DNA from: Endozoicomonas ascidiicola
GTDB lineage: Bacteria; Pseudomonadota; Gammaproteobacteria; Pseudomonadales; Endozoicomonadaceae
Assembly (NCBI RefSeq): GCF_001646945.1
Contig: NZ_LUTV01000010.1
Coordinates: 12,828 to 59,770 of the forward strand
DNA length: 46,943 bases
Reading direction: 5' to 3'
In this document: positions 10,073-31,673 of the stretch, piece after piece
Layout of the letters: each line of letters opens with the position of its first letter
How positions within the stretch are numbered: position 1 is the first letter of the stretch
The notes under the pieces: model-generated
The model's input: only the letters and a program-made list of their open reading frames with translations
Told to the model about the DNA's origin: nothing
Database searches by the model: none
Made by a program: the position numbers and the translations under genes

Positions 10073-10780
10073 TTACAGTTGTATGTTGAAAAAAGAAGAC
10101 CGCTTGATATATCGACGAACTTTCTCCATGGTGCCTGGAAACCATTTATCCAAGCGGTAAGTTTCCCGATAAATTTCATCGACCATCATTGGATTTTGAT
10201 AGTCATTGAACACAACGCCCACTAGTGACACATCATTCTGAGTCAAACGATCCAGCGCTGTTTTGAACTGAGTTTGCTGCGTGACACCGGCCATGACCAT
10301 GAACACCGCACCATCGGCCATTGCGCAAACAGTTTCTGCAGGAATATTATTACGGTTACGGGCATTGACCGGAGAGGTATCAAAGATCACCGCATCGTAA
10401 TTCTCCAGCCAGTGCTGAATCAGTTTGCTCATGGTGGCAATATTTCTGAAACGAAGTACGTCGCTGTCACAGGGAGCGGGGAGTACATCCAAGTTCAGAT
10501 CATTCGTTCTCATAATGTTTGCATCTGCAGACTGTGCTGTCGGAAACCAGTCTGTGTGCTGACGTCCTGAAATATCACCCAATTCAGGGTGCAGTATATT
10601 CACTTCCACCAGCAGGGTCTTCTTACCATCCAACTCACTGCGCTTGCTCAATGCATAAGCCAGAGTGCTGCATCCTTCACCGGGGTTTGCTGCCGTAATC
10701 GCCAGTGAACGCATCCCTTTGCCCAGGCTGTTGCTGTAGATCTCTTCTATTTCAAGGTAGTTAACTGGCAGCTTAATCAT
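10073..10780 (-). CDS. BY-kinase/ParA-like ATPase with broken Walker A (sypD-like position)
   Basis: A 235-residue cytosolic protein of the bacterial tyrosine kinase/CpsD-EpsG P-loop group, which works with Wzz-type chain-length proteins and export channels. The start is ATG 10780, overlapping the stop of the SLBB gene as ATGA; ATG 10792 is also possible. The Walker A region reads ANPGEGCSTLA: the invariant lysine of GxGKST is Cys (residue 37, codon TGC). Walker A' is also altered (LLVEVNILHPEL, Glu where Asp is usual). Walker B (YDAVIFDTSP) is preserved. There is no C-terminal tyrosine cluster. It may therefore bind nucleotide poorly and act as a structural partner of the chain-length protein at 23113. 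Last gene of the minus-strand arm. Confidence 0.8.
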   Translation of the reverse strand: MIKLPVNYLEIEEIYSNSLGKGMRSLAITAANPGEGCSTLAYALSKRSELDGKKTLLVEVNILHPELGDISGRQHTDWFPTAQSADANIMRTNDLNLDVLPAPCDSDVLRFRNIATMSKLIQHWLENYDAVIFDTSPVNARNRNNIPAETVCAMADGAVFMVMAGVTQQTQFKTALDRLTQNDVSLVGVVFNDYQNPMMVDEIYRETYRLDKWFPGTMEKVRRYIKRSSFFNIQL

Positions 10781-13311
10781 GGTGTAAACCATCCCAGGTT
10801 GGTTAGCAGTAACAGCACGTTTAGTATCCCTCCGGTATCGGTCACCAGACTATTAAAACTACGCCAGTTAGACTGGGATACCTCCGGAACAAAGATCGTA
10901 TCTCCAGCTCTTAGCACTGGCAGACTCTCTCCGTCCGGATCTTTCATAAAATCCACCAGATCAAATGTGCTGGCACGACTCTCTTCACAACAGGAATTAT
11001 TTACTATCAGAATTTTTTCGATATAAGCGGTTTCATTTGGACCTCCCGCTTCCGCCAGTAAGTCGAGAATGGTCATATTCGCGGTGAATTCATAACGTCC
11101 GGAAGTCGCCACGGCGCCCATAATTCTGACGGTATCTTCCGGCTCCTGTTCCGTCCATTTACGGGTTCGGGATGCAATGAAAATAGTATCTCCGGACTTT
11201 ACTTTCGGCAGCAGGCTTTCATCGCCGGTTTCAAAAAAGGTCAGTAAATCTACCTTAGTGACCCTGGGTATACCCTCATTTCGATGAATGACCCTGATGC
11301 GGCTTAAATCAGCTTCCTTATTAGGGCCTTCCGCTGCAGAAAGAATGTCTAAAAAACCAAGATTTTTATTAAATGCATAGCGTCCTGGCTGAATCACTGC
11401 CCCCATAATATAGATCGAGTTTTCTTTAGGGAGCTTGACCCAGTTAGCGTTATTATCAATGGGGGAATCCGGAAGTTCAGGAATAACCAAGGTACTCCCA
11501 CCCTTTACAACGGGTAAATCACTCCAATCACCGCCCTGCTCCATAAACTCCTGCATATTAAACTCAGTGACGATTCGTTCGTTATCAGGACCAGGAGTGA
11601 TAATTTTAATATGAGCAAGATCGGCTCTTTCTGCAGGACCGCCCGCATTACCAATATAATCGATAAAATCGACAGTTTCTGACCATTCATATCGTCCTGG
11701 TTTAATGACAGAACCGAGCACCTTAACCGACTGAGATGTGGGTGTTCTGAACCATGATGAATCTTCATTCGCCGGCTTCTCAGGAAAGAATATGGCATCG
11801 CCAGACTTAATCGTGGGGACTACTTCTACCCGCCCCTCGGTAAAAGCCTCCAGATCAAAAGGGACGACCTCGCCGCTTCTCCTGAGAATCCTGACGGCCG
11901 TTATGTCTGCATAACGATTAGGGCCGCCCGCATCTGAGATTACATCGAGAAAGCTGACATCTTCAGCCGTCTCAAATGATCCTGGTTTTTGTACCTGCCC
12001 CATCACATAAACCCTTCGGGGGCTCGCTGATATGGAATCAACCCGTATCGGAACATATACTGTTGCACCAGGCAGTAACTCTGGCAACTCATCGACGGAG
12101 CCGCTATCAAGGTATTTTTTGAGGTTAAACATGATCGGTTCACTACCTGAAAGGACGCGTATTTGCTCCACATTGGCGTATCGCGTAATACCCCCACCTT
12201 TCAGCATGGCATCCAGAACATTCACACCCTCCTCATAGCCAAAACTGATGGGTTTGATCACTTCACCAAAGACTTTAATAACCTCTCGGTCAGAAATAGA
12301 ATCTACCTCTTTGTCCTCAAGTGATTTCAGGGGCTTGCCGTGAATATTGCTGAGTTCTGGTGTTGACGGTACAAAAATCTCATCCAGTGACCGAAGGTTT
12401 GGCAGGACCTTTTCATCGCCAGTATCAAGATATTTTTTGAAGTCAAACGTGATCGTTTCCCCGTCTCTTCGCAACTGCAAACGACTTAGCAGCGCTCCAT
12501 CCACAAAGCCACCAGCCTGATTAATGGCAACCTGAATATTGCCGTTACCGGGCAACTCGACATCTCCGGGTTGTTCGACAAAACCAAGCACCGTCACTAA
12601 AAGGCGCTTTTCTTTTAAACGGATAGTCAGTTTATCCAAGCCAAGGAATATTTCAGACATCCTTCTGACAATGATTTTTTCAGCCTGTTTCAGCATTAAC
12701 CCTGCTATATTCAGCTGCCCAATCTCCGGAAGCCGGATAACTCCAGCCCGATCAATTAGAAATTCTTTGTTAAAGCCCTCTTCCCCGGGTAATTCGATAA
12801 ACAGCACATCGCCGGATTGCAGTTCATAATCACTGAATTTATTCTCTTGCTCCTGAGCTCCACGCTCGATGCTTTGTGAATCCCCATTAGGAACCACTCT
12901 TTCTTCTAATAGCTCTTGTAGTTGAGATTCGGTTGATACAGTATCTTCCTCTTTTGAAGACTCCACTCTGACAGAGGCCTTTGTCAGTGAAACAATAACA
13001 ACATCTCTTTCCTCAAGGACGACGCGTTTATGGCTCTGGCTATTTGAAGCAATATTGAGACCGCCACGAATCACCTGGTACTCCGCCTCAAAGGCATTCC
13101 TATCAAACAAGTTGTGGGCATTTTCCAACTGCTCAACCGTTCCACCGACAGACACAGCATACTCACCGGGAGACTCAATATCCCCCATCACGACAACCTT
13201 CATCAATTCACTGGTAAAAACAGGGGAGGAAAAGAAAATGCAAAGCAAAAAAACCCTTAAACCGTGATTCACGGCTTTAAGGGTTTTCTGATTTGCACAA
13301 GGCATTATCAT
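10777..13311 (-). CDS. Multi-SLBB polysaccharide export protein (sypC-like, Wza/OtnA family)
   Basis: About 844 residues, more than twice the length of E. coli Wza (379). An N-terminal hydrophobic segment (about 17-34) looks like a signal peptide. Then come an SLBB-like piece (MKVVVMGDIESPGEY), a poly-export domain (about 165-240: YELQSGDVLFIELPG, LPEIGQLNIAGL), and six SLBB repeats opening LLVTVLGFVEQPG, VIKVFGEVIKP, RVYVMGQVQKPG, SVKVLGSVIKPG, SIYIMGAVIQPG and TVRIMGAVATSG. A hydrophobic C-terminus follows (ILNVLLLLTNLGWF). It should form the periplasmic/outer-membrane export channel. ATG 13311 has GGAG six bases upstream and lies 17 bases after the lipoprotein stop. A terminator-like hairpin falls inside codons of the signal peptide (13247-13287). 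Confidence 0.88.
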   Translation of the reverse strand: MIMPCANQKTLKAVNHGLRVFLLCIFFSSPVFTSELMKVVVMGDIESPGEYAVSVGGTVEQLENAHNLFDRNAFEAEYQVIRGGLNIASNSQSHKRVVLEERDVVIVSLTKASVRVESSKEEDTVSTESQLQELLEERVVPNGDSQSIERGAQEQENKFSDYELQSGDVLFIELPGEEGFNKEFLIDRAGVIRLPEIGQLNIAGLMLKQAEKIIVRRMSEIFLGLDKLTIRLKEKRLLVTVLGFVEQPGDVELPGNGNIQVAINQAGGFVDGALLSRLQLRRDGETITFDFKKYLDTGDEKVLPNLRSLDEIFVPSTPELSNIHGKPLKSLEDKEVDSISDREVIKVFGEVIKPISFGYEEGVNVLDAMLKGGGITRYANVEQIRVLSGSEPIMFNLKKYLDSGSVDELPELLPGATVYVPIRVDSISASPRRVYVMGQVQKPGSFETAEDVSFLDVISDAGGPNRYADITAVRILRRSGEVVPFDLEAFTEGRVEVVPTIKSGDAIFFPEKPANEDSSWFRTPTSQSVKVLGSVIKPGRYEWSETVDFIDYIGNAGGPAERADLAHIKIITPGPDNERIVTEFNMQEFMEQGGDWSDLPVVKGGSTLVIPELPDSPIDNNANWVKLPKENSIYIMGAVIQPGRYAFNKNLGFLDILSAAEGPNKEADLSRIRVIHRNEGIPRVTKVDLLTFFETGDESLLPKVKSGDTIFIASRTRKWTEQEPEDTVRIMGAVATSGRYEFTANMTILDLLAEAGGPNETAYIEKILIVNNSCCEESRASTFDLVDFMKDPDGESLPVLRAGDTIFVPEVSQSNWRSFNSLVTDTGGILNVLLLLTNLGWFTP
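13247..13287 (-). terminator. Intragenic intrinsic terminator/attenuator in the SLBB gene
   Basis: aaaacccttaaaccgtga (13250-13267) and tcacggctttaagggtttt (13269-13287) are inverted copies differing by one bulged base. On the minus strand, the coding strand of the SLBB gene, the stem is followed at once by seven T residues (13253 down to 13247). This is the form of a strong rho-independent terminator, yet it lies about 25 to 65 bases inside the open frame. Translating ribosomes would melt it, so it could work as an attenuator between the STAS/lipoprotein genes and the export genes. Confidence 0.7.
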
Positions 13312-13328
13312 TACCGACTCCAACCTAT

Positions 13329-13847
13329 TTACGGTAAACTTTCAGGCTTCGCCCACCTGCCCAATCCCAACAAAGACTCTCTTTTGTTTATCCAATTCGG
13401 CCTGGCTTTCTTCCGAAGAACGTATTGCAGCGGACAACCTGTGGTTTCCAGCTGATTTTCAAGTCTTATCCGGAGACCATCCAGAGATACGAAAGTCTCT
13501 TCCAACCTTTTTAAAGGCTCTACTCGCAACTGAGCATCCAGCGCCAATCGAATTTGCTGATGCTCTTGCTTGAGGAATTGCATCCTGCCAGGTAGGCAGT
13601 GCTCTCCACCGACCCTTGCCAATGCCTGATAACGGCTTTCACTAATTCTCAACAACTCGACCAACTCACTCTGGCTAAGATACTCCCCCCTCGATTCCCT
13701 CCTGATTTTCAGGCTGTGTTCTCTTTCTGGAGGTGCAGGCCATAAGGGTGCACATGCTGAAACAACAGGCACACTCAAGAAAAAAAGTATTTTTATACTT
13801 CTTTTAAAAAAGGTGTAAAAACCATCAACTTTTTTAATCTCTACCAA
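13329..13847 (-). CDS. Small lipoprotein in the sypB position
   Basis: About 172 residues with a basic N-terminus, a hydrophobic stretch (IKILFFLSVPVVSA) and a lipobox ending VSAC (Cys 32), so a lipid-anchored envelope protein. The mature part is charged and helical (SQSELVELLRISESRYQALA, RMQFLKQEHQQIRLALDAQLRVEPLKRLEETFVSLDGLRIRLENQLE) with two further cysteines, and is probably partly coiled coil. The only in-frame start is TTG 13847, within the fourth unit of a 14-bp tandem repeat, with GGGAAAG just upstream. It sits between the STAS and export genes, where syp loci carry sypB, but V. fischeri SypB is OmpA-like and I see no OmpA motif here. No family recognised. Confidence 0.7.
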   Translation of the reverse strand: MVEIKKVDGFYTFFKRSIKILFFLSVPVVSACAPLWPAPPEREHSLKIRRESRGEYLSQSELVELLRISESRYQALARVGGEHCLPGRMQFLKQEHQQIRLALDAQLRVEPLKRLEETFVSLDGLRIRLENQLETTGCPLQYVLRKKARPNWINKRESLLGLGRWAKPESLP

Positions 13848-13889
13848 TTAATCTTTCCCAATTAATCTTTCCCAATTAATGCTTCCCAA
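13834..13889. repeat. Four 14-bp tandem repeats spanning a stop and a start codon
   Basis: Units at 13834-13847, 13848-13861, 13862-13875 and 13876-13889. The two middle ones are identical (ttaatctttcccaa); the outer two differ at two positions each. Read on the minus strand, the array holds the last codons and TAA of the STAS gene, the whole 28-base gap, and the TTG start of the lipoprotein gene. Confidence 0.9.
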
Positions 13890-14208
13890 GATATTCTTCA
13901 ATACTTTCATATTGCTTGATCGCTTGACTGATCCTGAGCATTGTCAATAATTCGTCAGTCTTACCATTAACGCCAAGCAAACCAAGATTCCGACTATCCA
14001 TTCTCAGTCGCTTATAAAGAAAAACTAACGCACCCACTCCAGAGGAATCAATTTTACCCATTTCACTCATATCAATAAGCACATCACCGGCACCATCCTC
14101 AATCAAACCTTCAAAATACTCTTTAATATCATTCACCGTCCCTGAATCAAAATCATCATGTAATTCAACCACATGACAATCATTCGATTGATAAGTCGAG
14201 TAATCCAT
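13876..14208 (-). CDS. STAS-domain protein, SypA-like anti-sigma-factor-antagonist type
   Basis: A 110-residue single STAS domain, the size of V. fischeri SypA and SpoIIAA. It carries VVELHDDFDSGTVNDIKEYF, VLIDMSEMGKIDSSGVGALVFLYKRL and LGLLGVNGKTDELLTMLRI. The DSSG motif holds the serine phosphorylated in this family. From ATG 14208 the first Ser is residue 55, or 56 from GTG 14211; published V. fischeri work, as I recall it, places the SypA phosphoserine at 56. ATG 14208 has AGGT about eight bases upstream. First gene of the minus-strand arm and divergent from the GGDEF/EAL gene across 244 AT-rich bases. The expected kinase/phosphatase partner SypE is not in the window. Confidence 0.88.
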   Translation of the reverse strand: MDYSTYQSNDCHVVELHDDFDSGTVNDIKEYFEGLIEDGAGDVLIDMSEMGKIDSSGVGALVFLYKRLRMDSRNLGLLGVNGKTDELLTMLRISQAIKQYESIEEYLGKH

Positions 14209-14452
14209 CACCCATTACCTCAATATCCATAAACATCCAATTAAAACAATCTCCACATAAAATCAGACTAGCCAATCAAAATTTAAAAAACGGCAATCAA
14301 AAAATAAATGACGGAAAGAATTATATTTACCCAACCAATAAAACAATCAACAATTTATTAAAAACAAAACCTATAGTTAATTAACAAGACATTTAAGAAG
14401 TTAAGATAAAACTTATTCAGACCTCATGACGTGCCCAAGCATTTCTGAATAA
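14209..14452. promoter_or_regulatory. Divergent promoter region of the two polysaccharide arms
   Basis: A 244-base, strongly AT-rich gap between the STAS gene (leftward) and the GGDEF/EAL gene (rightward) that must hold both start signals. I cannot identify a sigma-54 -24/-12 element (GG-N10-GC), which is what V. fischeri syp promoters use with SypG, nor a clear operator. Confidence 0.4.
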
Positions 14453-16549
14453 ATGGCGGAAAGATCATTTCACCTTATGGATACGAAAGAAGGCACTCAC
14501 GGTCAATCACAGCTTTCCCACCAACTGCTGAAAGTGGTTTTGCTTTGTGCCTGCCTTCTTGGCGTGCTCCTCAGTCTTGTTCAAGTATTTATTGAAGCTC
14601 GCCAGACCAGTATCGCCATTGATAAAAGAGGTCAGGAAATTCTGGCCATGATCCATGAGCCTGCTCATAAGGCATTGTCGCGCTTTGATAATAAGATGGC
14701 TCAGGAAATCTTGAACGGCGTGATGGAAGTATCATCCGTTCAGGCTGCAGCCATCAGGCTTGAAGATCAATCACTGCTGGCCAGAACGGAAAGACCTTTA
14801 TCCCATTCCCGCTATCGCCTGCTGACCGATGCCATTTTCACCCCTATAAGAACGTTTCGACACTCAATGAGTGCAGACTCACATGCCCCATCCGCTTCAG
14901 GTGAAGTGATACTATATTTTGATACGGCTTATGAAGGAAAGTCGTTTGTTCAACGCTCGGTCACTATCGTTCTGGTGGGTTTGGTCCGCGCGATTACCAT
15001 GGCGCTGGTATTATTTTTCATTTATTCCACTTTACTGACCAAGCCATTGAACCGACTTATCTTTCACCTCACAGGCATCAACCCTGAACACCCCGGTAAG
15101 GCGCAATTACCCATCCCGAAAGGACACGAAAAAAATGAACTTGGCCTCTGGGTGACCACCGCCAATAAGTTATTACATTCCATCGATAAACATTACAGCC
15201 TGCGACAGAAAGCAGAAGAGCGCATTATGCGCCTTTCTCAATACGATTATCTGACCCGACTTCCTAATCGACGTTCTCTGCAAAAGCATCTGAACCAGCT
15301 CATTAAAAAAGCGAATAGCAACGATAGCATGGCGGTGATCTGCCTGGGTCTGGACGATTTCAAATCCCTGAATATTCAGTTGAACTTCAATGCGGCAGAA
15401 CACGTACTGGTAAAACTTTCCGATCGCTTAAGAAACCATGTCAATAACGCAACCTATCTGGGTCGGCTGGGAGAAGATCAGTTTGCCATTATCCTGACAA
15501 ATGTGAGCCAGCCTTATGAAGCGGCCGAACTGACTCAGTCCCTGCTGCAGGAATTTGAAAAACCGTTTGTAATTAATGACGAATTTCTTACCGTCACTGC
15601 CACAGCCGGTATCACTCTGTTTCCTAATGATGGGGACAATGTGGATAAACTACTGCAGCAGGCCGAGTTTGCCATGATCATGGCGAAGTCCCGCAACCGC
15701 AACCGTTACCAGTTTTATATAGCCACCATCGACAGTGACATCCGTCAACGTAAACGGTTGGAAATGGATCTGCATCAGGCGCTTGAAAATCAGGAACTCA
15801 GTCTGGTGTATCAACCACAATTCAGCTGTGAGAATGGTGAGCTGGTCGGTATCGAAACATTGATTCGCTGGCATCATCCTGACAGAGGTTTAATCTCTCC
15901 TGACCTGTTTATCCCCATGGCCGAGCAAAGCATGGATATCATTCCCATCGGCAACTGGGTACTGGAAACAGCCTGCCATCAGTTAAAGCAATGGCAAAAC
16001 AGTGGCTACCATGGGCTGCGAATGGCCATCAACCTTTCCGCCGTCCAACTTCAGGACCCCGATATCGTTGACCGGGTGATTTATCTGCTGAACAAGTACC
16101 AGTTTTCCCCGGATGCCCTGGAGCTTGAGGTCACCGAAACCTTCATCATGGAAGATATTGAGATCGCCAAACTGCAATTGAATCAGTTAAAGAGTTTAGG
16201 TATCACCCTGACACTGGATGACTTCGGCACTGGCTATTCTTCTCTGGGGTATTTGAAACAATTCCCCTTCGATAAAGTGAAAATTGATAAGTCTTTTATC
16301 GAAGGGCTGCCAGAACATAAAGAAAATGGCGCCATTGTTGATGCCATTATCCAGATAGGCAAAAGCTTTGGCATGCTCGTACTGGCGGAGGGTGTCGAGA
16401 CCCTGGAACAGGAACTTTGCCTGAAAGAAAAAGGCTGTCAGGAAGGACAGGGTTATTACTACGGCAAACCACTGCCTGCAGACGCTTTCATCGAGCACTT
16501 AACTAACCTCGACGTATTGCCAAGGATACCTGGGAGAGCCAATGGTTGA
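14453..16549 (+). CDS. Membrane GGDEF/EAL protein; degenerate GGDEF, probable c-di-GMP phosphodiesterase
   Basis: A 698-residue inner-membrane sensor-type protein. TM1 is about 25-47, a periplasmic region about 48-168, TM2 about 170-195, followed by a HAMP-like linker. The GGDEF domain (about 258-425) has RLGEDQFAI at 338-346, so the active-site motif is GEDQF, which should not make c-di-GMP. The EAL domain (about 435-690) keeps the expected residues: E468 in ETL, the N in AINLSA, LEVTET, DDFGTGYSS (589-597), VKIDKSF and LAEGVET. Phosphodiesterase activity is therefore likely. It stands at the divergent junction where V. fischeri carries sypE-F-G, and its stop overlaps the next glycosyltransferase start by eight bases, so it is cotranscribed with the plus-strand arm. 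Confidence 0.9.
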   Translation: MAERSFHLMDTKEGTHGQSQLSHQLLKVVLLCACLLGVLLSLVQVFIEARQTSIAIDKRGQEILAMIHEPAHKALSRFDNKMAQEILNGVMEVSSVQAAAIRLEDQSLLARTERPLSHSRYRLLTDAIFTPIRTFRHSMSADSHAPSASGEVILYFDTAYEGKSFVQRSVTIVLVGLVRAITMALVLFFIYSTLLTKPLNRLIFHLTGINPEHPGKAQLPIPKGHEKNELGLWVTTANKLLHSIDKHYSLRQKAEERIMRLSQYDYLTRLPNRRSLQKHLNQLIKKANSNDSMAVICLGLDDFKSLNIQLNFNAAEHVLVKLSDRLRNHVNNATYLGRLGEDQFAIILTNVSQPYEAAELTQSLLQEFEKPFVINDEFLTVTATAGITLFPNDGDNVDKLLQQAEFAMIMAKSRNRNRYQFYIATIDSDIRQRKRLEMDLHQALENQELSLVYQPQFSCENGELVGIETLIRWHHPDRGLISPDLFIPMAEQSMDIIPIGNWVLETACHQLKQWQNSGYHGLRMAINLSAVQLQDPDIVDRVIYLLNKYQFSPDALELEVTETFIMEDIEIAKLQLNQLKSLGITLTLDDFGTGYSSLGYLKQFPFDKVKIDKSFIEGLPEHKENGAIVDAIIQIGKSFGMLVLAEGVETLEQELCLKEKGCQEGQGYYYGKPLPADAFIEHLTNLDVLPRIPGRANG

Positions 16550-17657
16550 TCAGCCAATTGTTCTGCTCTTGGACTCACGGCAACCTGGTGGGATTGAGAG
16601 TCATGTTTTTCAGCTGGCCAGCGCACTTAAACGCAATCGCTGGCCCATAGAAGTCTGGTTTTACCGACGATATTCAGTACTCCACCCCCTTGAAGTAGAA
16701 CTCAATGACGCCGGCGTGAAGGTTAGATATCTCAATGGCACACTCCGCGAACTGAACAAAACCATAAAAGACACCCGCCCTCTGGTTCTCCATACCCACG
16801 GCTACAAAGCAAACACCCTTGGCAGGGTGGTAGGCCTAATCAATAGAATCCCCGTTGTCTCAACATTTCATAATGGTGACCGGGGCACCGGAAGAGTTCG
16901 GCTCTATACCCTGCTGGATGAACTGTCTTCAGTGCTTTCTCAAAATATTATTGTGAATAAAGAGATGGTTCGCCGATGGATTCATCGTCCGATTAAGCTC
17001 AGTAACTTTATTCAAATTCCGGAAAAACAGCTCCACTCGGGACAGGCTGTTGCCTTTGTGGGTCGACTGAGTCACGAAAAAGGACCGGATCTTTTTCTGC
17101 AACTGGCCAAGCATCAACCGATGCTCTCCTTTCATATGTATGGCTCCGGCCCTATGGCCTCCAAGCTGAAAGAGCAGGAAGTCAGCAATGTTGCGTTTAT
17201 GGGACAGGTGACTTCCATGAACACCCATTGGCGGGATATCGGTTTGCTTTGCATCACCTCACGGGAAGAAGGGCTACCAATGGTGGCACTGGAAGCCATG
17301 GCCAACGGCATTCCAGTCATCAGTTTTCCATTGGGTGGACTGCCAGAGCTGATTACTCAAGGTTACAACGGTTGGACAACACCACCTGGCGATTTAACCG
17401 CCATGAGCAGTCTTGTGCAGTTCTGGATGTCGCTGCCTGAGGTGGTGAAACTGCAACTGAGCCAGTCGTGCCGGGATACGATTTCCCGAGAGTATTCTTC
17501 ACGCACCATTGTACCGGGCATTTTGTCGGTCTACCGGCAGGCCATCGACATCAAGGGACAACCGGTACCGGAACTTTTTTCTAAGCAAACACTCAAAAAT
17601 TCGGTCAGCCACCAACCGGACAACACGCTTCCTCCCACGTCATCCACCCACGGTTAG
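16542..17657 (+). CDS. GT4-family glycosyltransferase (sypH/I/J position)
   Basis: A 371-residue cytosolic GT-B enzyme. The acceptor half opens VLLLDSRQPGGIESHVFQLASAL and has LVLHTHGYKANTLG and VVSTFHNGDRGTGR. The donor half has AVAFVGRLSHEKGPDLFLQLA, FHMYGSGPM and the E-x7-E motif in REEGLPMVALEAMANGIPVI, followed by GGLPELI. This is the Glycos_transf_1/GT4 pattern for retaining nucleotide-sugar transfer. Sugar and linkage cannot be read. V. fischeri syp has three glycosyltransferases (H, I, J) before K; here there is one, so the repeat unit may be smaller or differently built. It overlaps the EAL gene by eight bases and lies five bases before the flippase gene. Confidence 0.88.
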   Translation: MVDQPIVLLLDSRQPGGIESHVFQLASALKRNRWPIEVWFYRRYSVLHPLEVELNDAGVKVRYLNGTLRELNKTIKDTRPLVLHTHGYKANTLGRVVGLINRIPVVSTFHNGDRGTGRVRLYTLLDELSSVLSQNIIVNKEMVRRWIHRPIKLSNFIQIPEKQLHSGQAVAFVGRLSHEKGPDLFLQLAKHQPMLSFHMYGSGPMASKLKEQEVSNVAFMGQVTSMNTHWRDIGLLCITSREEGLPMVALEAMANGIPVISFPLGGLPELITQGYNGWTTPPGDLTAMSSLVQFWMSLPEVVKLQLSQSCRDTISREYSSRTIVPGILSVYRQAIDIKGQPVPELFSKQTLKNSVSHQPDNTLPPTSSTHG

Positions 17658-17662
17658 GTTTT

Positions 17663-19093: not shown

Positions 19094-19102
19094 GTGGTTA
19101 AT

Positions 19103-20500: not shown

Positions 20501-20553
20501 AACTATATTTACTATTGATGGAATTAAAACCGGGTTACAAAGGAAGCACCCCT

Positions 20554-21276
20554 ATGATTAGCAGCCTTAAAGTACGAATAAAAAATAGCAACTTGCCTTT
20601 AGCAAAGTTAATCACTTCCAGCGGTTTGTTCATTCGATATTTCACCTTTCCAACCATCAAGCCATTACACGGGGGGCTCTATTGGCTGCACAAGTCAGTC
20701 ATCGGGCTGACGGGTTATCTGCTGCGTACTTTTTACTGGACACCTCTGTTCAAATCTCAACTCATCAATGACCCAAAATACCTTTACCTTTTTTCAGGAA
20801 TGCCTCTATTGCTAGGCAACTTTCAAATCTCCATGGGCGATCATTGTCGAGTTTCTGGTCATACAACCTTCTGTGGCAGAAGCTCACCATCCCCTACAAC
20901 ACTGATCATTGGAAACAATGTAAGTATCAATTGGCAAAACGAAATTCTTGTCGGCAATCGTATTGTCATTGGCAACAATGTCCGCCTTGCCGTGAAAGTC
21001 CGCCTTGTTGGTTACCCCGGTCACCCAGTTGATCCGGTAGATAGAGCTAACGGTATGCAGGACACACCTGACCAAGTCGGCGATATTATTCTAGAAGATA
21101 ATGTCTGGCTGGGTGCCGGGGTCTCGGTCATGGGCGGTGTCACCATTGGCGCGGGAACCATTGTCGCCACCGGCAGTGTAGTCACTAAAGACCTTCCTCC
21201 GGGTGTTCTGGCAGGTGGCATACCGGCCAAAATCATTAAAAAACTACCGGTAGGATCAGAGGCTTCCCATGACTGA
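20554..21276 (+). CDS. Hexapeptide-repeat acetyltransferase (sypM-like)
   Basis: A 240-residue enzyme of the left-handed beta-helix acyltransferase group, probably modifying the polysaccharide or a precursor. Hexapeptide turns are visible in LIIGNNVSINWQNEILVGNRIVIGNNVRLAV and IILEDNVWLGAGVSVMGGVTIGAGTIVATGSVVTKDLPPGVLAGGIPAK, the latter being the usual end of such enzymes. An unusual N-terminal part (about 1-90) is hydrophobic and basic. ATG 20554 has aaggaag eight bases upstream; the earlier TTG 20515 and ATG 20518 lack one. It overlaps the following glycosyltransferase by eight bases, as expected for an operon. Confidence 0.88.
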   Translation: MISSLKVRIKNSNLPLAKLITSSGLFIRYFTFPTIKPLHGGLYWLHKSVIGLTGYLLRTFYWTPLFKSQLINDPKYLYLFSGMPLLLGNFQISMGDHCRVSGHTTFCGRSSPSPTTLIIGNNVSINWQNEILVGNRIVIGNNVRLAVKVRLVGYPGHPVDPVDRANGMQDTPDQVGDIILEDNVWLGAGVSVMGGVTIGAGTIVATGSVVTKDLPPGVLAGGIPAKIIKKLPVGSEASHD

Positions 21277-22393
21277 CTTTGTTGTTTTTGGGGAAGACTG
21301 GGGCGCCTTTCCCTCCAGCACGCAGCATCTTATTCGACATTTAATGCCCAAGCATCGAGTTATCTGGGTTAACTCCATTGGCCTTCGAGCACCAAAACTC
21401 ACCTTCAGGGATACTAAACGATTATTCCTTAAAGCGTGGTCAATGTTCCGCTATAACCGTCAAAGACCTAAATGTCACAATGACGCAAAGAACCCTTACA
21501 TCATTGAACCTCTTGCCCTGCCATTCCACCAATTCAGAGTTGTACGAAAACTGAATCAATACTTGTTATCACAACAGATTAACAAAGTAATTAAGCAACA
21601 GGACTTTAGCCAGATCACCCTTTTGATATCACTGCCCACCGCTGCTGATTTAGTTGGCTGCTTTGGGGAAAAGAAAATCATTTATTACTGCGGTGATGAT
21701 TTTGAAGCCTTGGAGCACGTGGATCACCAACCGGTCTCTCTATTGGAACAAGAACTGGCGCACAAAGCCGACCTAATTGTGACAGCCAGTCAGAATATTG
21801 CAAAAAAATTCCCTGCCCATAAAACCGTAGCCCTACCTCATGGCGTCGATTATCAATTATTTTCCACACCCACTGATGCACCCAAAGATACGCCAAACTC
21901 GGGGTATGTGGCTGGTTTCTATGGAACCATCTCTTCCTGGATTGATACCGAATTATTATCAGCTACTGCCAAAACCATGCCTCAGTGGCAATTCGTTCTG
22001 ATTGGTCATGTCAAAGTGGATATTACACTGCTGAAAGACCTCCCAAATGTGCATTTCCTGGGTTTTAAGCCTCACCACGAACTTCCTGCGTATGTCCAAC
22101 ATTGGGATGTTGCGCTTCTGCCCTTTCAAAGGAATCCGCAAATTGAAGCTTGTAACCCGCTGAAGCTGAAAGAATATCTGGCTTCTGGAACACCGGTAGC
22201 TGCCACCCGATTTCCCGCTGCTGAAGAATACCAACACGCCATTGCGATCCAATCACCGGGAGAGGATTTTTCCAACGTCATTACCCGAGCCTATTTACAA
22301 CAGAACAAGGCGGCATTCCGACGCCAACTAGTTGCAGATAAAACTTGGCAACACAGAGCTGACCAGCTGGAAGACCTAATAGAAAAACAGTGA
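21269..22393 (+). CDS. Glycosyltransferase, TuaH-like GT-B type (sypN-like)
   Basis: A 374-residue cytosolic protein opening MTDFVVFGEDWGAFPSSTQHL, then HRVIWVNSIGLR, a pattern seen in TuaH-like transferases of capsule and teichuronic-acid loci. The C-terminal half has AGFYGTISSWIDTELL, FVLIGHVKVD, VHFLGFKPHHELPAYVQHWDVALLPFQRN and CNPLKLKEYLASGTPVAATRFPAA, a GT4-like donor site with a modified E-x7-E region. It occupies the sypN position. Its stop is followed by a 200-base gap, the longest within this arm, suggesting a second promoter for the remaining genes. Confidence 0.85.
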   Translation: MTDFVVFGEDWGAFPSSTQHLIRHLMPKHRVIWVNSIGLRAPKLTFRDTKRLFLKAWSMFRYNRQRPKCHNDAKNPYIIEPLALPFHQFRVVRKLNQYLLSQQINKVIKQQDFSQITLLISLPTAADLVGCFGEKKIIYYCGDDFEALEHVDHQPVSLLEQELAHKADLIVTASQNIAKKFPAHKTVALPHGVDYQLFSTPTDAPKDTPNSGYVAGFYGTISSWIDTELLSATAKTMPQWQFVLIGHVKVDITLLKDLPNVHFLGFKPHHELPAYVQHWDVALLPFQRNPQIEACNPLKLKEYLASGTPVAATRFPAAEEYQHAIAIQSPGEDFSNVITRAYLQQNKAAFRRQLVADKTWQHRADQLEDLIEKQ

Positions 22394-22619
22394 CTACACT
22401 TACAATAATGCATGATAAATAACTGTTTTGTTGAAAGTTTCATCAAGCGCTTTATCAAGAATGTATCAATAAAGGATGGCATTAAAAAAAGAGTGCCATT
22501 AAAACAGTCACCTTTATTTATCTCAGCAGGTTCTCTGTCGTCATAGACAGAAAATCGTCTGTTCTGGATGTTCACACAGACTTCAATGTTTTCAAGTGAC
22601 TAATCATTCAGGAAATCAA
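22394..22619 (+). promoter_or_regulatory. Internal gap, possible second promoter of the polysaccharide arm
   Basis: The only sizeable break in the plus-strand arm. It contains a short inverted pair, tggca (22479-22483) and tgcca (22494-22498), around an A-run. No clear sigma-70 pair stands out. It could carry a promoter for the lipoprotein to phosphoglycosyltransferase genes, as V. fischeri syp also has internal promoters. Confidence 0.3.
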
Positions 22620-23123
22620 GTGGCCAGAATGAATGGATTCAGACAACTCACCTTGGTATGTACCTTAATGGTAACCGGTTGCCAGACATCGCCTGATTTC
22701 CAGGAATTGATGAGAAGAGAGCAAGCAAAAACAACGCTGAAAAAGCCCAACGGTGTTATCCATCAAATGCAGGCTGCCGCAGGATTACCCACTGCGGAAA
22801 ATGTCTATAAACGTCGTTTATCCCTAACATTCCAACCTGACGAATTAACAGCCAGCGAGCAAAATGCTCAGCTGATCCATTTTTTCCTCAGTTCGTTACC
22901 AACCAGCATGAGATTAAGTGTTGTTATTTCCGTTGCCCCCTCTTCAGCAAAAGAACCGTTTAAAACATTGAAAGATTCATCCACCCGATTGCAAAGCCTT
23001 AAAACGATCTTACACAGTTATACGCCTCATATTGAGTTGGTATATCAGCCAAGCATGACAATTGATACTGCCGGCATTCACGTGACGGGTATCCCTGTTT
23101 CAGGAGCACCCCATGTCCAATGA
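22620..23123 (+). CDS. Small lipoprotein before the chain-length gene
   Basis: About 167 residues starting at GTG 22620 (aggaaa just upstream; GTG 22596 and ATG 22629 are alternatives). A signal sequence LTLVCTLMVTGC ends in a lipobox, so the protein is lipid-anchored. The mature part has RRLSLTFQPDELTASEQNAQLIHFFLSSLP, RLSVVISVAP, SSTRLQSLKTILHSY and IELVYQP. This strand-helix-strand-helix order loosely recalls an OmpA-type peptidoglycan-binding fold, with the R of SSTRLQSLK at a family-like place. If so, it may be the displaced SypB equivalent, but the likeness is weak. It overlaps the chain-length gene by 11 bases, so they are coupled. Confidence 0.75.
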   Translation: MARMNGFRQLTLVCTLMVTGCQTSPDFQELMRREQAKTTLKKPNGVIHQMQAAAGLPTAENVYKRRLSLTFQPDELTASEQNAQLIHFFLSSLPTSMRLSVVISVAPSSAKEPFKTLKDSSTRLQSLKTILHSYTPHIELVYQPSMTIDTAGIHVTGIPVSGAPHVQ

Positions 23124-24615
23124 AATCCTGAAAAACCTGTTTAGACTGCTCAATGCTGGCTGGCGTCGGCGATACACTATTTTCATTCCGGTACTGATCA
23201 TGCCGATGGTTGGCGTTTTCGTCAGTTTCATTGCGCCAAAATACTACGAAGCCCATACCACTATTCTGCTGCAGGACACCACAGCACTGAATCCGATTCT
23301 GGAAGACTTTTCCGTTTCAACCAATCTGGAAGAGCGACAGTTAGCCCTGAAATTACTGTTAAAAAGCCGCAAAGTATTGAAAGGCGTTGCCAATGCGGCC
23401 GGCTTTATTGATGAAACGTCTTCCCGTGAAGACGTTGATGAAGCCATCGACGAACTTTCCCGTTCTCTCTCTGTAGTATTTGGTGGCGAACTGATCAAAA
23501 TCTACTACCGAAGCAAACGCAAAACTGACATTAAAGAACTGCTCACCAAAGTGACAAACCACTTTCTGCATCTGGTTCAGGCACCGCAAAAATCCTGGCA
23601 ATCGGCTTCAACTGAGTTTTTGAAGGAACAGGTGGAACTGCGCCATCAGGAACTCTCCAAATCAGAGTTAAAGCTGTCTTCCTACAAAGCGGAATACGCT
23701 CTGGAGCTTCCGGAACTTCATAAAGCAAACGTCACCCGTCTTGCGGAGTTACGTCAGTTATTGATGGAAAAAGAAACCGAACTGGCCGGGGCACAGGCCG
23801 CTATGACGGAGTTTAATGGCAACCTCGCACAAACCAACCCGGTCATCGGCAAACTGGAGGAACGGATTATCAATATCCGAACCCAGCTGAGCATGTTGCG
23901 CTCCCGGTACACTGAGAAGCACAGTAAAGTTCAGGCAACCGTTCGGGAGCTGGATCGGTTGAAATCAGAACGCCAAAGAATGATTTCCGAAAGCAGTAAA
24001 TTGAAAACAGAAGATATCCAGCGACTCTGGAATCTTGCAGCGTCCACCCCCACCGTCGCTGGAGAGAGTCAGCAGGGGCAGACCACGATTCTTGCGTCAC
24101 AGTTACAAGCCGTTCAGGAAGCCAAGGCAAAGGTGACGAGTCTGAAGAATGAGGTTAAAAACATCAAAAACCAAGCCACTCACCTTCAGGAAAAAGTACA
24201 AGAATTTGCCACTATCGAACGGTCGCTGATCGAACTCGAGCGAGATTTCACTATCAAGCAAAAACTTTACGATGATTTTCTCAATCGCTATGTGATGGCA
24301 CAAGTCACTGCCGACCTTAGCGTCTATGAAGAAACAGAAAGAGTTAAAATTATTGATGAGCCGTTCAACCCAAGCAGCCCGAACCAACTGCCCACCGCGC
24401 TGTTTGTTGTTGCTGGCTTATTTGCTGGGCTTGGCATTGGCACCGGCTTAGCCGCCATTGCAGAAATTTCTGATACCACGTTACGTTTGCAAGATACCAT
24501 TGAGCGCATATCCGGCATTCCGGTACTTGCCAGAATTCCGGCTGTGCCAGAAGCCCCCGCTCTGATCTACGATGCTGGAAAAGATGGATTCAATGATGGA
24601 GAGGCAGCTTCATGA
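23113..24615 (+). CDS. Wzz/GumC-type chain-length determinant (sypO-like)
   Basis: A 500-residue inner-membrane protein with TM1 about 17-38, then the Wzz domain (ALNPILEDFSVSTNLEERQLAL). A long periplasmic coiled coil spans about 170-400 (LKEQVELRHQELSKSELKLSSYK, LEERIINIRTQLSMLRSRY). The Pro-rich junction PFNPSSPNQLPTA leads into TM2 (about 425-447) and a short cytosolic tail with LQDTIERISGIPVLARIP. The fused tyrosine-kinase domain of Wzc is missing, so a separate ATPase would be needed, presumably the degenerate one at 10073. Length matches the EpsF/PEP-CTERM chain-length group. It overlaps the following glycosyltransferase by four bases. Confidence 0.92.
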   Translation: MSNEILKNLFRLLNAGWRRRYTIFIPVLIMPMVGVFVSFIAPKYYEAHTTILLQDTTALNPILEDFSVSTNLEERQLALKLLLKSRKVLKGVANAAGFIDETSSREDVDEAIDELSRSLSVVFGGELIKIYYRSKRKTDIKELLTKVTNHFLHLVQAPQKSWQSASTEFLKEQVELRHQELSKSELKLSSYKAEYALELPELHKANVTRLAELRQLLMEKETELAGAQAAMTEFNGNLAQTNPVIGKLEERIINIRTQLSMLRSRYTEKHSKVQATVRELDRLKSERQRMISESSKLKTEDIQRLWNLAASTPTVAGESQQGQTTILASQLQAVQEAKAKVTSLKNEVKNIKNQATHLQEKVQEFATIERSLIELERDFTIKQKLYDDFLNRYVMAQVTADLSVYEETERVKIIDEPFNPSSPNQLPTALFVVAGLFAGLGIGTGLAAIAEISDTTLRLQDTIERISGIPVLARIPAVPEAPALIYDAGKDGFNDGEAAS

Positions 24616-25703
24616 GCAAACCTTTAGTCATTGCACAGATCGTTCAGCACCTTGCTCCCGGCGGCATTGAAACCATGGCGATTCAGCTTCAACACCATGC
24701 TCAAGATGACGACACTGTCCACATCATCAGCTTGCAGGGTAGCCAATCAGTATCCATTAACGCCTGGGATAAATTAGCCACTCTTCAGAATATTCACTTT
24801 CTGGATAAATCCAGTGGCCTTAGCCTGAAAACCATTCTGCAATTGAAAACGCTCTTGAAAGAATTGCAGGTGGATATTGTGCACACACACCACACGGGGC
24901 CTCTGATTTATGGTGGCATCGCAGCAAAGCTGAGCCAGTGCCGACATATCCATACAGAACATGATGCATGGCACTTGAACCATAAAATAAACAGGCTGTT
25001 GGTAAGCAGTTGTTACCATCTTCTGCAGCCAAACGTCGTCGCTGTTTCAAAGCTGATCGCTTCTAAAGTGGAGAAGCTTACCGCTTACAGAAAACCTGCT
25101 GTAATTTTTAATGGGGTTGATACCAAGCTCTTTTCTCCAGATAGCCAAACCACAGCCAGAGAACAACTATGCCTACCAGAAAGCGCCACCATCATTGGCT
25201 GCGCTGCACGCCTAACGGCAGTCAAATCCCATGATCTATTACTCAACGCGTTAACAGAACTCCCTGATTCAGTGCATGTTGCACTGGCTGGAAATGGCGA
25301 ACGAAAAGAAGCGCTGCATAATCTCACCAACCTCTTAGGCCTTGAAAAGAGAGTTCACTTTTTAGGCAACCTCGACAACATGCCCGTATTTTATAATGCC
25401 ATTGATGTTTTTTGCCTGACTTCACGAAATGAAGGGCTTCCCTTTTCTCTGCTGGAAGCTCAAGCCTGCCAAAAAGCTGTAGTCGTCACAGATGCTGGCG
25501 CCTGTCGAGAAGGAGTCGATAAAGAGAGTGGTTCAATTATCGCTATTGATCATTATGAAGGCTTAGTTCAGGTGCTCAGAAAACATACACAGCTTTCCAC
25601 CCCTGTCGGTACAGCAGCATCAGCAAGAGCCTTTATTGAAAGCACCTTTGGTCTGACCAGAATGATCAATGAATATCGCCGTCTTTATCTGGAGGCATCA
25701 TGA
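24612..25703 (+). CDS. GT4-family glycosyltransferase (sypP-like)
   Basis: A 363-residue GT-B enzyme: LAPGGIETMAIQLQHHA at the N-terminus, DIVHTHHTGPLIYGGIAAKL, HIHTEHDAWHL, VIFNGVDTKLFSP, IIGCAARLTAVKSHDLLLNAL, VALAGNGERKEAL, VHFLGNLDNMPVFYNAIDVFCL and the E-x7-E region NEGLPFSLLEAQACQKAVVVT. These are GT4 hallmarks for a retaining transferase. Substrate unknown. ATGA overlaps join it to the chain-length gene before and the GT2 gene after, so the three are translationally coupled. It fills the sypP position. Confidence 0.9.
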   Translation: MSKPLVIAQIVQHLAPGGIETMAIQLQHHAQDDDTVHIISLQGSQSVSINAWDKLATLQNIHFLDKSSGLSLKTILQLKTLLKELQVDIVHTHHTGPLIYGGIAAKLSQCRHIHTEHDAWHLNHKINRLLVSSCYHLLQPNVVAVSKLIASKVEKLTAYRKPAVIFNGVDTKLFSPDSQTTAREQLCLPESATIIGCAARLTAVKSHDLLLNALTELPDSVHVALAGNGERKEALHNLTNLLGLEKRVHFLGNLDNMPVFYNAIDVFCLTSRNEGLPFSLLEAQACQKAVVVTDAGACREGVDKESGSIIAIDHYEGLVQVLRKHTQLSTPVGTAASARAFIESTFGLTRMINEYRRLYLEAS

Positions 25704-26917
25704 CAAATCAGATACTGGTTTCTATTTTCGTGCTGTCCGTAGCCATTATTAGTTACCACTATATTATCTATCCAGTATTACTGTCTTTTATTAATATCAC
25801 CCGTTATTCATTGCCAAAATACTTCCATCGCAATTACATTCCCTCGCTCAAAGATGAAGCCTTACCTTCCATACACATCATTATCCCCGCCTACAATGAA
25901 GAGCGTTATATCAAGGATAGAATTCTCAACCTGGCCATTATCGATTACCCAGAAGATCGATTTAAAATATCCGTGATATCCGATGGCTCAGAGGACGATA
26001 CCTACAGGGCAGCACTTAATGCAGCATCACTTCCTGAGTGTAAACATCTGAATATTGACATTCACGCTCTGGAAGAAAATATTGGCAAAATCGCTATCAT
26101 CAATCAGTTTGCATCTTCACAGAATTCAGACATTGTCGTCTTATCAGATGCCTCGGCAATCACATCTATCAACTGTCTTCTGATTATTGCTGCGTACTTC
26201 CAACAAGATAAACGTATTGGCGCTATCTGTGGTAACTACCAATTTGTTCCTGCACAAACTTCAGGTGAGCAAGCCTACTGGAACTATCAACGTAGAATTA
26301 AAATACAAGAGAGTATGCTGGGTTCAACCATTGGCCTGCACGGTGCATTTTATGCCTTTAAGAGTGAACTTTTTCAGACTATTCCCCATGACACTATCAA
26401 CGATGATGTCATTTTGCCGCTCAGCATTATTCGTCAAGGATTCAAGTGCCTTTACGACCCAAGACTGATTACCATTGAACTGGAATCCTCCTCAGACCAG
26501 ATGAATTTTCAACGTCGCATTCGAATTGCGGCGGGAAATTTACAGCAGTCCATTCGGAACATGGATCTTTTATTGCCCAGACATAGACGATTCGCCTTCA
26601 ATTTTTTCTCTGGAAAATTCCTCAGACCCTTCATCCCACTGTTACTAATTTGTAGCTTTATATCCTCAATTCTATTAGCGACAGAATACCTGTTTTTCTT
26701 GTCAGTTATTTTTATCCTGCTAGCCCTGACCACAAGTACTTTATATTACTTACTGATAGACTCTCAACCGGATAGCAAAATTGCGAAAACGCTGTTTTAT
26801 ATTGTGGCCGGCCATATTGCCATGACCCTCGGGGTTTTCAGTTACGCATTTCATTCGCCCCATAAACGATGGCGAAAAATAAAAAGTTCACCCCGTCTTG
26901 AAGAACCTCGTACTTAA
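25700..26917 (+). CDS. Membrane GT2-family glycosyltransferase (sypQ-like)
   Basis: A 405-residue enzyme with an N-terminal membrane segment (about 5-26), a GT-A domain and three or four C-terminal segments (about 315-390). The catalytic domain has IHIIIPAYNEERYIKDRIL, ISVISDGSEDDTY, a DxD-like VVLSDASAI, the acidic pair in INDDVILPL and QRRIR in place of the Q-x-x-RW motif. This resembles processive GT2 enzymes such as IcaA and PgaC, but the altered RW suggests it may add single sugars. It fills the sypQ position. It overlaps the previous gene by four bases and lies 11 bases before the phosphoglycosyltransferase. Confidence 0.88.
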   Translation: MTNQILVSIFVLSVAIISYHYIIYPVLLSFINITRYSLPKYFHRNYIPSLKDEALPSIHIIIPAYNEERYIKDRILNLAIIDYPEDRFKISVISDGSEDDTYRAALNAASLPECKHLNIDIHALEENIGKIAIINQFASSQNSDIVVLSDASAITSINCLLIIAAYFQQDKRIGAICGNYQFVPAQTSGEQAYWNYQRRIKIQESMLGSTIGLHGAFYAFKSELFQTIPHDTINDDVILPLSIIRQGFKCLYDPRLITIELESSSDQMNFQRRIRIAAGNLQQSIRNMDLLLPRHRRFAFNFFSGKFLRPFIPLLLICSFISSILLATEYLFFLSVIFILLALTTSTLYYLLIDSQPDSKIAKTLFYIVAGHIAMTLGVFSYAFHSPHKRWRKIKSSPRLEEPRT

Positions 26918-26928
26918 GGAGTGTACTT

Positions 26929-27570
26929 ATGCATCAAAAGCGCTACGTTCATCCCATGTCAGCGGTGGGAAAAAGATTCTCAGATATTTCCATCGCAGCG
27001 ATTGGGTTAATCTTTGCACTTCCACTCTATCCATTAATTGCTCTGGCTATTCGTCTCGATAGCCGCGGGCCTGTTTTATATCACCAGATTCGAATTGGCT
27101 ACCAACAAGACGACTGTGTCTGTTTGTTCATGATGCACAAATTCAGAACCATGAGAGACAATGCGGAATGTGAAACGGGCCCAGTATGGTCGCCCAGAGA
27201 TGATCCAAGAATTACCCGGGTCGGCCAGTTTTTAAGAAAAACACGCTTGGATGAACTGCCACAATTATGGAATGTACTAGCGGGTGATATGTCGATCGTC
27301 GGGCCGCGTCCTGAGCGCCCCGGCATATGCAATAATCTTGACCATGAAATTCCGTTCTACTCCGAGCGCACATTTGATGTGCTGCCAGGCATCACAGGAC
27401 TTGCGCAAATTAATACCGGTTATGACGAAACGCTGGATGATGTCAAAGCCAAAGTTGCCTACGATCATGCCTACGCGCTTGCACTCAGTAATCCATGGCT
27501 GTGGCTGAAGATGGACTTTTACGTAATGTTCAAAACCATGCTGGTGATGATTACCGGTAAAGGGCAATAG
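26929..27570 (+). CDS. Initiating undecaprenyl-phosphate sugar phosphotransferase (sypR-like)
   Basis: A 213-residue monotopic phosphoglycosyltransferase (bacterial sugar transferase family), the size of PglC. The re-entrant hydrophobic segment is about 19-40 (ISIAAIGLIFALPLYPLIALAI). Next come RLDSRGPVLYHQIRIG, the MHKFRTMRDNAE block, DDPRITRVGQFLRKTRLDELPQLWNVL with its catalytic acidic residue, GDMSIVGPRPERP and PGITGLAQI. It should start repeat-unit synthesis by moving a sugar-1-phosphate to undecaprenyl phosphate. In V. fischeri the last syp gene, sypR, has this role, and here it is also last. It ends five bases before the convergent YvcK-family gene. Confidence 0.92.
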   Translation: MHQKRYVHPMSAVGKRFSDISIAAIGLIFALPLYPLIALAIRLDSRGPVLYHQIRIGYQQDDCVCLFMMHKFRTMRDNAECETGPVWSPRDDPRITRVGQFLRKTRLDELPQLWNVLAGDMSIVGPRPERPGICNNLDHEIPFYSERTFDVLPGITGLAQINTGYDETLDDVKAKVAYDHAYALALSNPWLWLKMDFYVMFKTMLVMITGKGQ

Positions 27571-30691: not shown

Positions 30692-30925
30692 CAGACGCGT
30701 GCCTCCATGCTCATGTCTGTTTCAGCTTATTCAACAGCCCTTAATGAATAGATGCTTTGAAATTCCGTTATGTGTCAATAAATATACAATCTATTCAGTC
30801 TATCGGAAAATAAACTCAATTAACCAGTATTTCGTCAAAAAAGTAATAAACGTTAACCTAACCGCTTGAACTTTCAATTATCTATCCGATGCTAACTAAT
30901 GCTTTTAAGATGATGAGGCAGAGCT
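30692..30925. promoter_or_regulatory. Divergent promoter region of the T3SS locus
   Basis: A 234-base AT-rich gap separating sctC (leftward) from sctX (rightward). It must hold both promoters. I cannot identify a firm -35/-10 pair or an ExsA/LcrF-type activator site; A-rich runs such as caaaaaagtaataaa (30836-30850) could take part. sctX itself has gagg eight bases before its ATG. Confidence 0.4.
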
Positions 30926-31321: not shown

Positions 31322-31333
31322 AGGAACCAAACC

Positions 31334-31627: not shown

Positions 31628-31673
31628 TTTTCAATACCTTTGTCAGCTCTTCCACAGTGATGGCATACCTAAC

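Follow-up and report, generated by a model that had tools for sequence, protein, structure and literature searches.

A probable Syp/Scv-type exopolysaccharide locus of the Endozoicomonadaceae without SypE and SypG and with a putative EAL phosphodiesterase

The squid symbiont Vibrio fischeri (A. fischeri in the following) uses the syp gene set for its colonization slime. In Endozoicomonas ascidiicola, a stretch of 46,943 nucleotides, here called the window (G000:C36:12828-59770, within a 6.13 Mb genome), carries an array of genes that an earlier note took for a syp-like locus beside a T3SS. This raises the question of which parts of the Syp system the array has kept, which it can miss, and whether its neighbours belong to it. 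As argued below, it is very probably a Syp/Scv-type Wzx/Wzy exopolysaccharide locus of the Endozoicomonadaceae, in a form proposed to work without SypE and SypG and with tuning by an EAL protein. Syp loci in Endozoicomonas have already been published at the genus level, as described in the text of PMC8941931, and the locus in the window is a distinct variant.

The syp-type locus spans positions 10073-27570 of the window in two divergent arms, and the gene calls agree with the earlier note on both points. The minus arm (10073-14211) consists of the A, B, C and D genes, the plus arm (14453-27570) of a GGDEF-EAL gene, nine genes in syp positions (H and K-R) and a small lipoprotein gene. The gene list of that note was incomplete, in that it left out both the GGDEF-EAL protein (14453-16549) within its interval and the small lipoprotein (22596-23123) between N and O. 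Families were assigned with Pfam and NCBIfam, the sypB-like lipoprotein and the sypD-like protein having no Pfam match. The features are listed here with identities and E values relative to the A. fischeri counterparts in genome G440:

10073-10792, minus: sypD-like cytoplasmic BY-kinase-related protein (33% to SypD, 1e-44)
10777-13323, minus: sypC-like outer-membrane protein of polysaccharide export, N-terminally extended and carrying SLBB repeats (Poly_export, SLBB; 42%)
13329-13847, minus: N-terminal half of sypB, a lipoprotein without OmpA domain (hhalign to the SypB profile)
13876-14211, minus: sypA-like STAS protein (STAS; 36% to SypA, 4e-18)
14212-14452, no strand: intergenic region from which the arms diverge (one sigma-54 -24/-12 pattern tried, no match)
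14453-16549, plus: membrane GGDEF-EAL protein, overlapping sypH by 8 nt (Pfam; motif alignment)
16542-17657, plus: sypH-like GT4 glycosyltransferase (41% to SypH, 4e-85)
17663-19093, plus: flippase in the sypK position (Polysacc_synt_3; best BLAST match to SypK at E 1.7)
19094-20500, plus: sypL-like Wzy-type polymerase/ligase (Wzy_C; 45%, 5e-120; single genome-wide A. fischeri match)
20515-21276, plus: sypM-like hexapeptide acetyltransferase (Pfam; 45%, 4e-69)
21269-22393, plus: sypN-like glycosyltransferase (Pfam; 42%, 1e-103)
22596-23123, plus: unnamed lipoprotein with predicted OmpA-like fold, overlapping sypO (profile searches, AlphaFold2 model)
23113-24615, plus: sypO-like chain-length determinant, Wzz/GNVR (Pfam; 41%, 4e-126)
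24612-25703, plus: sypP-like GT4 glycosyltransferase (Pfam; 38%, 8e-79)
25700-26917, plus: sypQ-like GT2 glycosyltransferase (Pfam; 41%, 1e-103)
26929-27570, plus: sypR-like initiating phosphoglycosyltransferase (Bac_transf; 55%, 3e-84; reverse best hit)
27576-28484, minus: YvcK-family UDP-GlcNAc-binding protein (TIGR01826, 283.8 bits, cut-off 196)
28568-33755, both strands: T3SS genes sctC (minus) and sctX, sctY and sctV (plus), a conserved neighbour not counted in syp

Overlaps or tight spacing are seen between the EAL gene and H (8 nt), M and N, the lipoprotein gene and O, O and P, P and Q, and C and D, while N is separated from the lipoprotein gene by a 202-base gap; this arrangement suggests two operons that would be read outward from 14212-14452. 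Divergent arms are found in all 17 family genomes that have both arms on their DNA, namely the window, 12 of the 15 loci of one set (L019, L025 and L026 end early) and four of four loci of a second set. The separation of A-D from the rest, which the earlier note had set against the single-direction Vibrio locus, is therefore real, but it is not unique. In 80 named loci (the best 80 of 253 found with SypC), the biosynthetic genes on the retrieved locus DNA lie on the SypC strand in 30 cases, all on the opposite strand in 20 and on mixed strands in 23, with none found in seven; the 20 all-opposite loci are 10 from the family and 10 from outside it. These counts indicate that reshuffling of the A-D block against the remainder is usual.

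Our references for the individual genes were two Vibrionaceae genomes, G440 and G481, which we take to be A. fischeri, their LuxI being 100% identical to that of A. fischeri; their gene letters were set by gene order, following the published A-R series. In BLAST comparisons with the G440 locus, 11 genes match A. fischeri counterparts in the same order (A, C, D, H and L-R) at 33-55% identity, and each of the 11 proteins scores best with its own counterpart. Homologues exist for the entire export and assembly core (A, C, D, L, O and R, likewise 33-55%); H, L, M, N, O, P, Q and R are collinear with A. fischeri, and the order within each arm is kept for the genes present. SypO and SypL have one genome-wide match each in G440 and in G481, inside the syp locus, with six first-look candidates per genome scored in the SypO search. 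Conversely, A. fischeri SypR finds the window R as its best match in G000 (2.1e-72 versus 1.5e-25 for the next). The genome-wide best-hit tests, in one direction each, thus agree for O, L and R, the other eight proteins having been compared locus to locus.

The Syp-type homology proposed before is borne out by these 11 collinear matches, and neither the tests of O, L and R nor the locus comparison showed best matches scattered over unrelated EPS loci. Two of the proposed letters need correction: the gene called J (16542) matches A. fischeri SypH (41%, 4e-85) and not SypJ, and the one called K encodes a flippase that BLAST does not relate to SypK (best E 1.7). Both this flippase and SypK match Pfam Polysacc_synt families; no SypK orthologue is detectable by BLAST, and another flippase occupies its place, of a type with which the flippases of all 10 named family loci are labelled, and those of the 70 remaining named loci never. 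Matches of this kind might also be expected from an XrtA/PEP-CTERM-type EPS locus that resembles syp merely through shared families, and the best NCBIfam matches of C, L, O and P are indeed XrtA-system models. All four, however, stay below the curated cut-offs (C 169.4/180, L 142/188.1, O 214.5/278.85, P 148.2/409.05), a Pfam scan of 40 window proteins turned up no exosortase family, and the whole order fits A. fischeri syp, where O and L find their single best matches. We therefore regard an XrtA-type locus as very improbable and retain the Syp/Scv-type reading.

What the earlier account passes over is the absence of regulators. By BLAST against the G440 syp genes, the window locus has no counterpart of SypE, SypF, SypG, SypI or SypJ. 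The retrieved DNA is free of SypE/F/G-like matches in 10 of 10 named family loci versus 51 of 70 other named loci, as counted with models that are loose (E 1e-5) and catch other regulators too, and with three of the 10 family loci shorter than 16 kb. In 34 relatives, the best SypE matches, among the matches listed, are without the N-terminal kinase part. One sigma-54 -24/-12 pattern, which matched the A. fischeri sypA region as a positive control, occurs in none of 13 family intergenic regions.

In place of these regulators, the plus arm is headed by the EAL gene, which holds this position in the window, in 12 loci that reach it and in four further loci (one match partial). Its GGDEF motif is degenerate (GEDQF in 14 of 15 sequences, GGDQF in L027), and its EAL motifs are intact in all 14 complete domains; the frame of L021 (G003) stops inside the domain. 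Outside the family, an EAL protein lies about 10 kb or less from sypC in three of 70 named loci. An intact EAL domain with a degenerate GGDEF domain at the head of the arm points to local c-di-GMP breakdown that probably tunes the output, and such a phosphodiesterase, together with the lack of a sigma-54 site, may stand in for control by SypEFG. The EAL gene persists in G022, where no syp gene was detected, and in G021, where sypA and sypR alone accompany it, so that it may also have a syp-independent role. A. fischeri itself has a GAF-GGDEF-EAL protein 3' of sypR, which by its position we take to be BinA. BinA (VF_A1038) appears in the text of PMC11575326 as a known phosphodiesterase. The EAL protein was considered as a BinA orthologue and rejected: the A. 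fischeri protein has a GAF domain and is predicted to have no membrane segment, and the two match only over GGDEF-EAL.

The minus arm has preserved its components to differing degrees. SypA retains the serine of the DSSG motif, as in A. fischeri (alignment); a search for a solved relative that would name it matched only generic anti-sigma antagonists. SypC aligns with its A. fischeri counterpart over 674 columns (42%, 603 bits). It has some 130 more N-terminal residues than the latter, of which residues 35-64 bear a weak resemblance (E 0.3) to part of A. fischeri SypC. BY-kinases are marked by a Walker A lysine. This lysine is lacking in SypD (GEGCST here, GEGVSS in A. fischeri) and kept in the aligned Colwellia and Thalassotalea rows; the match of SypD to NCBIfam eps_fam is weak (51.5 bits, cut-off 108), and it would qualify as a BY-kinase only loosely.

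SypB, finally, is present as an N-terminal half. The window protein matches the SypB profile (hhalign 95.0%, E 3.9e-8) and is bridged to it by the longer SypB of two family members (98.95% and 99.2%). In the window, L013-L015, L017, L018 and L020-L022, SypB has 172-190 residues and no OmpA half, whereas two family members outside Endozoicomonas have a longer SypB, also without recognizable OmpA domain; no separate sypB frame was obtained from L016 and L023. Short frames without OmpA match are usual in the sypB place also in Aeromonas and many Alphaproteobacteria. The text of PMC8941931 states that Endozoicomonas loci are without the OmpA protein ScvB and that E. elysicola has a two-domain ScvI (SypK) homologue; the retained N-terminal half of SypB refines the former statement.

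Part of this arm may have a history of its own. The window is collinear with contig C7 of G011 over about 2352-46440, with about 96% DNA identity outside a mosaic stretch of about 2.5 kb, where the two are 66% identical (11330-13800, versus 95-96% on either side). This stretch, the only one with 500-base bins below 0.85 identity in the collinear 44 kb, takes in the greater part of sypB and, of sypC, roughly the N-terminal four fifths; its edge is sharp near 13775 and gradual between 11250 and about 11480. The simplest reading would be that recombination replaced the allele in one of the two lineages; base composition gives no indication whether this was the window or G011, and the family sequences compared include no identifiable donor. 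Exchange of a sypB-sypC cassette is as expected if the export channel faces attack or host selection, and that selection acts on this channel is a guess on our part.

The plus arm holds a component that A. fischeri syp lacks, the small lipoprotein encoded before sypO. A profile built from the window and 11 family loci, excluding L023 with its unrelated frames, yielded 21 matches at E <=0.001 among 5174 open frames of the 80 loci, 40 of which have a detected SypO. Four matches belong to Endozoicomonas loci whose DNA ends before sypO; the other 17 all immediately precede sypO in the same orientation, with spacings from a 76 nt overlap to a 10 nt gap (e.g. L093 2490-2960, L114 2766-3218 and L075 14392-15129). 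A lipoprotein gene directly 5' of sypO is thus found in many non-Vibrio loci. In whole genomes, a 20-sequence model detects it in 13 of the 16 syp-bearing relatives (G001, G014 and G019 being the exceptions) and in none of the 18 that lack syp. G001 (L023) has about 2.4 kb extra between N and O, where the lipoprotein was not found. In A. fischeri, sypN and sypO overlap and hence leave no room for it.

The best three PDB sequence matches of this protein are OmpA family lipoproteins (E 0.002, 0.017 and 0.06), followed by two unrelated chains at 0.06-0.07; among the 20 members, one matches CpaD (5.6e-4) and one an unrelated plant family (5.9e-4). The AlphaFold2 model (overall pLDDT 75.7, pTM 0.57) is confident over residues 71-160 (block means 91-98; mean 87 for 161-170) and has the order strand-helix-strand-helix-strand-strand, which is the OmpA-like topology. 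From this order and the weak sequence matches, an OmpA-like fold is predicted. The peptidoglycan-binding OmpA motif includes an aspartate, which is not evident here, while R131 is invariant, and binding to the cell wall therefore appears doubtful. As a candidate for the relocated OmpA half of SypB, the lipoprotein was rejected: the profiles align only over the signal-peptide stretch (13.6%), and lipoprotein presence and OmpA loss do not track, with both in 14 loci, neither in 14, only OmpA in six and only the lipoprotein in five. This tally, with the lipoprotein at E <0.01, covers the 39 scorable loci of the 80, the other 41 having no sypO or no sypB-position frame on their DNA.

Beyond sypR, the first neighbour is yvcK. 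A YvcK protein scores above the cut-off in 17 of the 34 relatives: in 15 of the 16 genomes with syp, G011 showing two frames below the cut-off, and in two of the 18 without (G021 and G022). This association is inflated by kinship, as 12 of the 16 syp genomes belong to one genus. Elsewhere, 12 named Colwelliaceae loci (two with identical SypC) have yvcK between R and A, and two Ferrimonas loci have it nearby (together L082, L083, L086, L088, L093, L098, L100, L104, L107, L110, L114, L121, L117 and L128). We infer that YvcK could act as a precursor sensor for syp; in a search of open-access articles, we found none that mentions YvcK and UDP-GlcNAc together with exopolysaccharide.

Next to yvcK follow the T3SS genes; those detected alongside syp in the window are sctC, sctX, sctY and sctV only. 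The earlier note had seen here a shared colonization module, and the physical linkage at its base holds: of the 20 family genomes with syp, 17, from two genera, have SctV at a distance of 7-9 kb from SypO (13 of 16 genomes, i.e. 12 of the genus and G016, and four of four of the second set). In G012, G014 and G019, syp and SctV are on separate contigs, with syp contigs of only 11-14 kb in G014 and G019. That syp and the adjoining T3SS evolved and act together in host colonization is nevertheless unlikely. Six family genomes (G015, G017, G018, G020, G021 and G022) have SctV above the curated cut-off without SypL, G012 carries the two systems on separate contigs, and 16 annotated regions from outside the family contain no sctC match. 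In G021, moreover, the flanking trmA, DUF218, yvcK and sctC enclose only sypA, the EAL gene and sypR, the T3SS having been kept after the remainder of syp was lost. The neighbourhoods of G021 (L239) and G022 (L238) resemble that of the window, with syp decayed in the former and no syp gene detected in the latter. The T3SS is thus a stable neighbour of syp and not an obligate partner, and their linkage is conserved synteny, which does not attest to joint function.

Within the family, SypL is found in 20 of 37 genomes: in 12 of 12 Endozoicomonas, in one of one, two of two and five of 10 genomes of three other genera, and in none of 12 of the remaining four. Several frames look broken or cut (yvcK in G011 (L013), the EAL gene and sypC in G003 (L021), and sypC-sypD in G001 (L023)). 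Strong SypC matches (E <1e-190) occur in only three of 369 class-sample genomes besides that of the window, after which values drop to about 1e-17; within this sample, SypC thus stands clearly apart from other export proteins. SypO was matched in all 12 named genomes picked from the SypC matches, with the best match about 17 kb or less from SypC in 11 and on a separate, short contig in Elstera, and in 193 of 247 sampled Vibrionaceae genomes at E 0.001, in some weakly. Thirty records that carry the label Alphaproteobacteria, Azorhizobium and numerous metagenome bins among them, contain SypC-type loci (L073-L081, L084, L085, L087, L089-L092, L094, L101-L103, L105, L113, L118, L120, L125, L129, L131, L134, L137 and L139); according to the text of PMC8941931, syp-type loci were known in two alphaproteobacterial genera and only in water-dwelling species.

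The same text proposes that such loci were transferred in several species, Endozoicomonas not being among them, and a recent horizontal transfer from Vibrionaceae to Endozoicomonas might be considered here as well. Yet in a quick, midpoint-rooted SypC tree the Endozoicomonadaceae form one side of a fully supported branch (SH-aLRT 100) apart from the remainder, including the Vibrionaceae, and the layout is common to three genera and the flanks to two, which makes a recent transfer highly improbable. This tree places L069, a record with the title Salinisphaera sp. G21_0, within Endozoicomonas, whose layout it shares; the record is probably mislabelled.

Returning to the Syp/Scv-type reading, the data establish homology, gene order, the lack of the regulators in the locus and the conservation of the EAL motifs; we infer the enzymatic steps, the polysaccharide they would yield, its control and any role it may have in a host. 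SypR would put the first sugar-phosphate onto undecaprenyl-phosphate, SypH, N, P and Q would lengthen the glycan, and SypM would acetylate it. The flippase would then turn the lipid-linked unit over for polymerization by SypL, with SypO and SypD setting the chain length and SypC, with the SypB remnant, exporting the product. SypA would be kept as a STAS switch, although the locus encodes neither SypE, its kinase/phosphatase, nor SypG, the sigma-54 activator; the membrane EAL protein at the head of the biosynthetic arm probably tunes output by local c-di-GMP breakdown, and the small OmpA-fold lipoprotein, coupled to SypO, probably aids assembly in the periplasm.

The window locus shows that SypE, F, G, I and J, as well as SypB's OmpA half, can be lacking from a Syp locus; it also points to a part that A. 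fischeri syp does not have. A wider reading, offered tentatively and with somewhat more doubt than confidence, is that the Syp machine outside Vibrio has an unrecognized part, the small OmpA-fold lipoprotein co-translated with SypO in Gamma- and Alphaproteobacteria, often with YvcK beside the locus; that the Endozoicomonas version may lack SypE/F/G and be governed by a c-di-GMP phosphodiesterase encoded in the same operon; and that sypB-sypC may be swapped between close strains as an allelic cassette. In our searches of open-access articles, we did not find in print an EAL phosphodiesterase without sigma-54 site replacing SypEFG control, an OmpA-fold lipoprotein directly 5' of sypO in many non-Vibrio loci, the yvcK linkage, or the 2.5 kb sypB-sypC mosaic allele. 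G021, with most of syp lost and its flanks intact, is a natural knock-out for comparison.

Among known systems, A. fischeri syp shares with the window locus the genes A, C, D, H and L-R, their order and the SypA serine. It runs in one direction, whereas the window locus has two divergent arms, is without SypE, F, G, I and J and without a sigma-54 match, and has a flippase that is not detectably orthologous; it also has the extra lipoprotein, and its EAL protein lies inside the arm, in contrast to the GAF-GGDEF-EAL protein 3' of sypR. The V. parahaemolyticus (scv) and V. vulnificus (rbd) systems resemble the window locus in that their genomes have no sypE orthologue, as stated in the text of PMC4517449. 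According to the text of PMC8941931, scv is built of an ABCD unit and a second unit, comparable to the window locus, while scv and rbd, unlike it, keep a SypG homologue (ScvE and RbdG). The scv locus is without SypM, which the window locus has. Closest are the syp/scv loci that Liu et al. 2022 list in Endozoicomonas (PMC8941931), which are of the same genus and locus family; as far as the article text goes, it describes them without the divergent layout, the EAL protein, the T3SS neighbour, YvcK and the pre-SypO lipoprotein that characterize the locus in the window.
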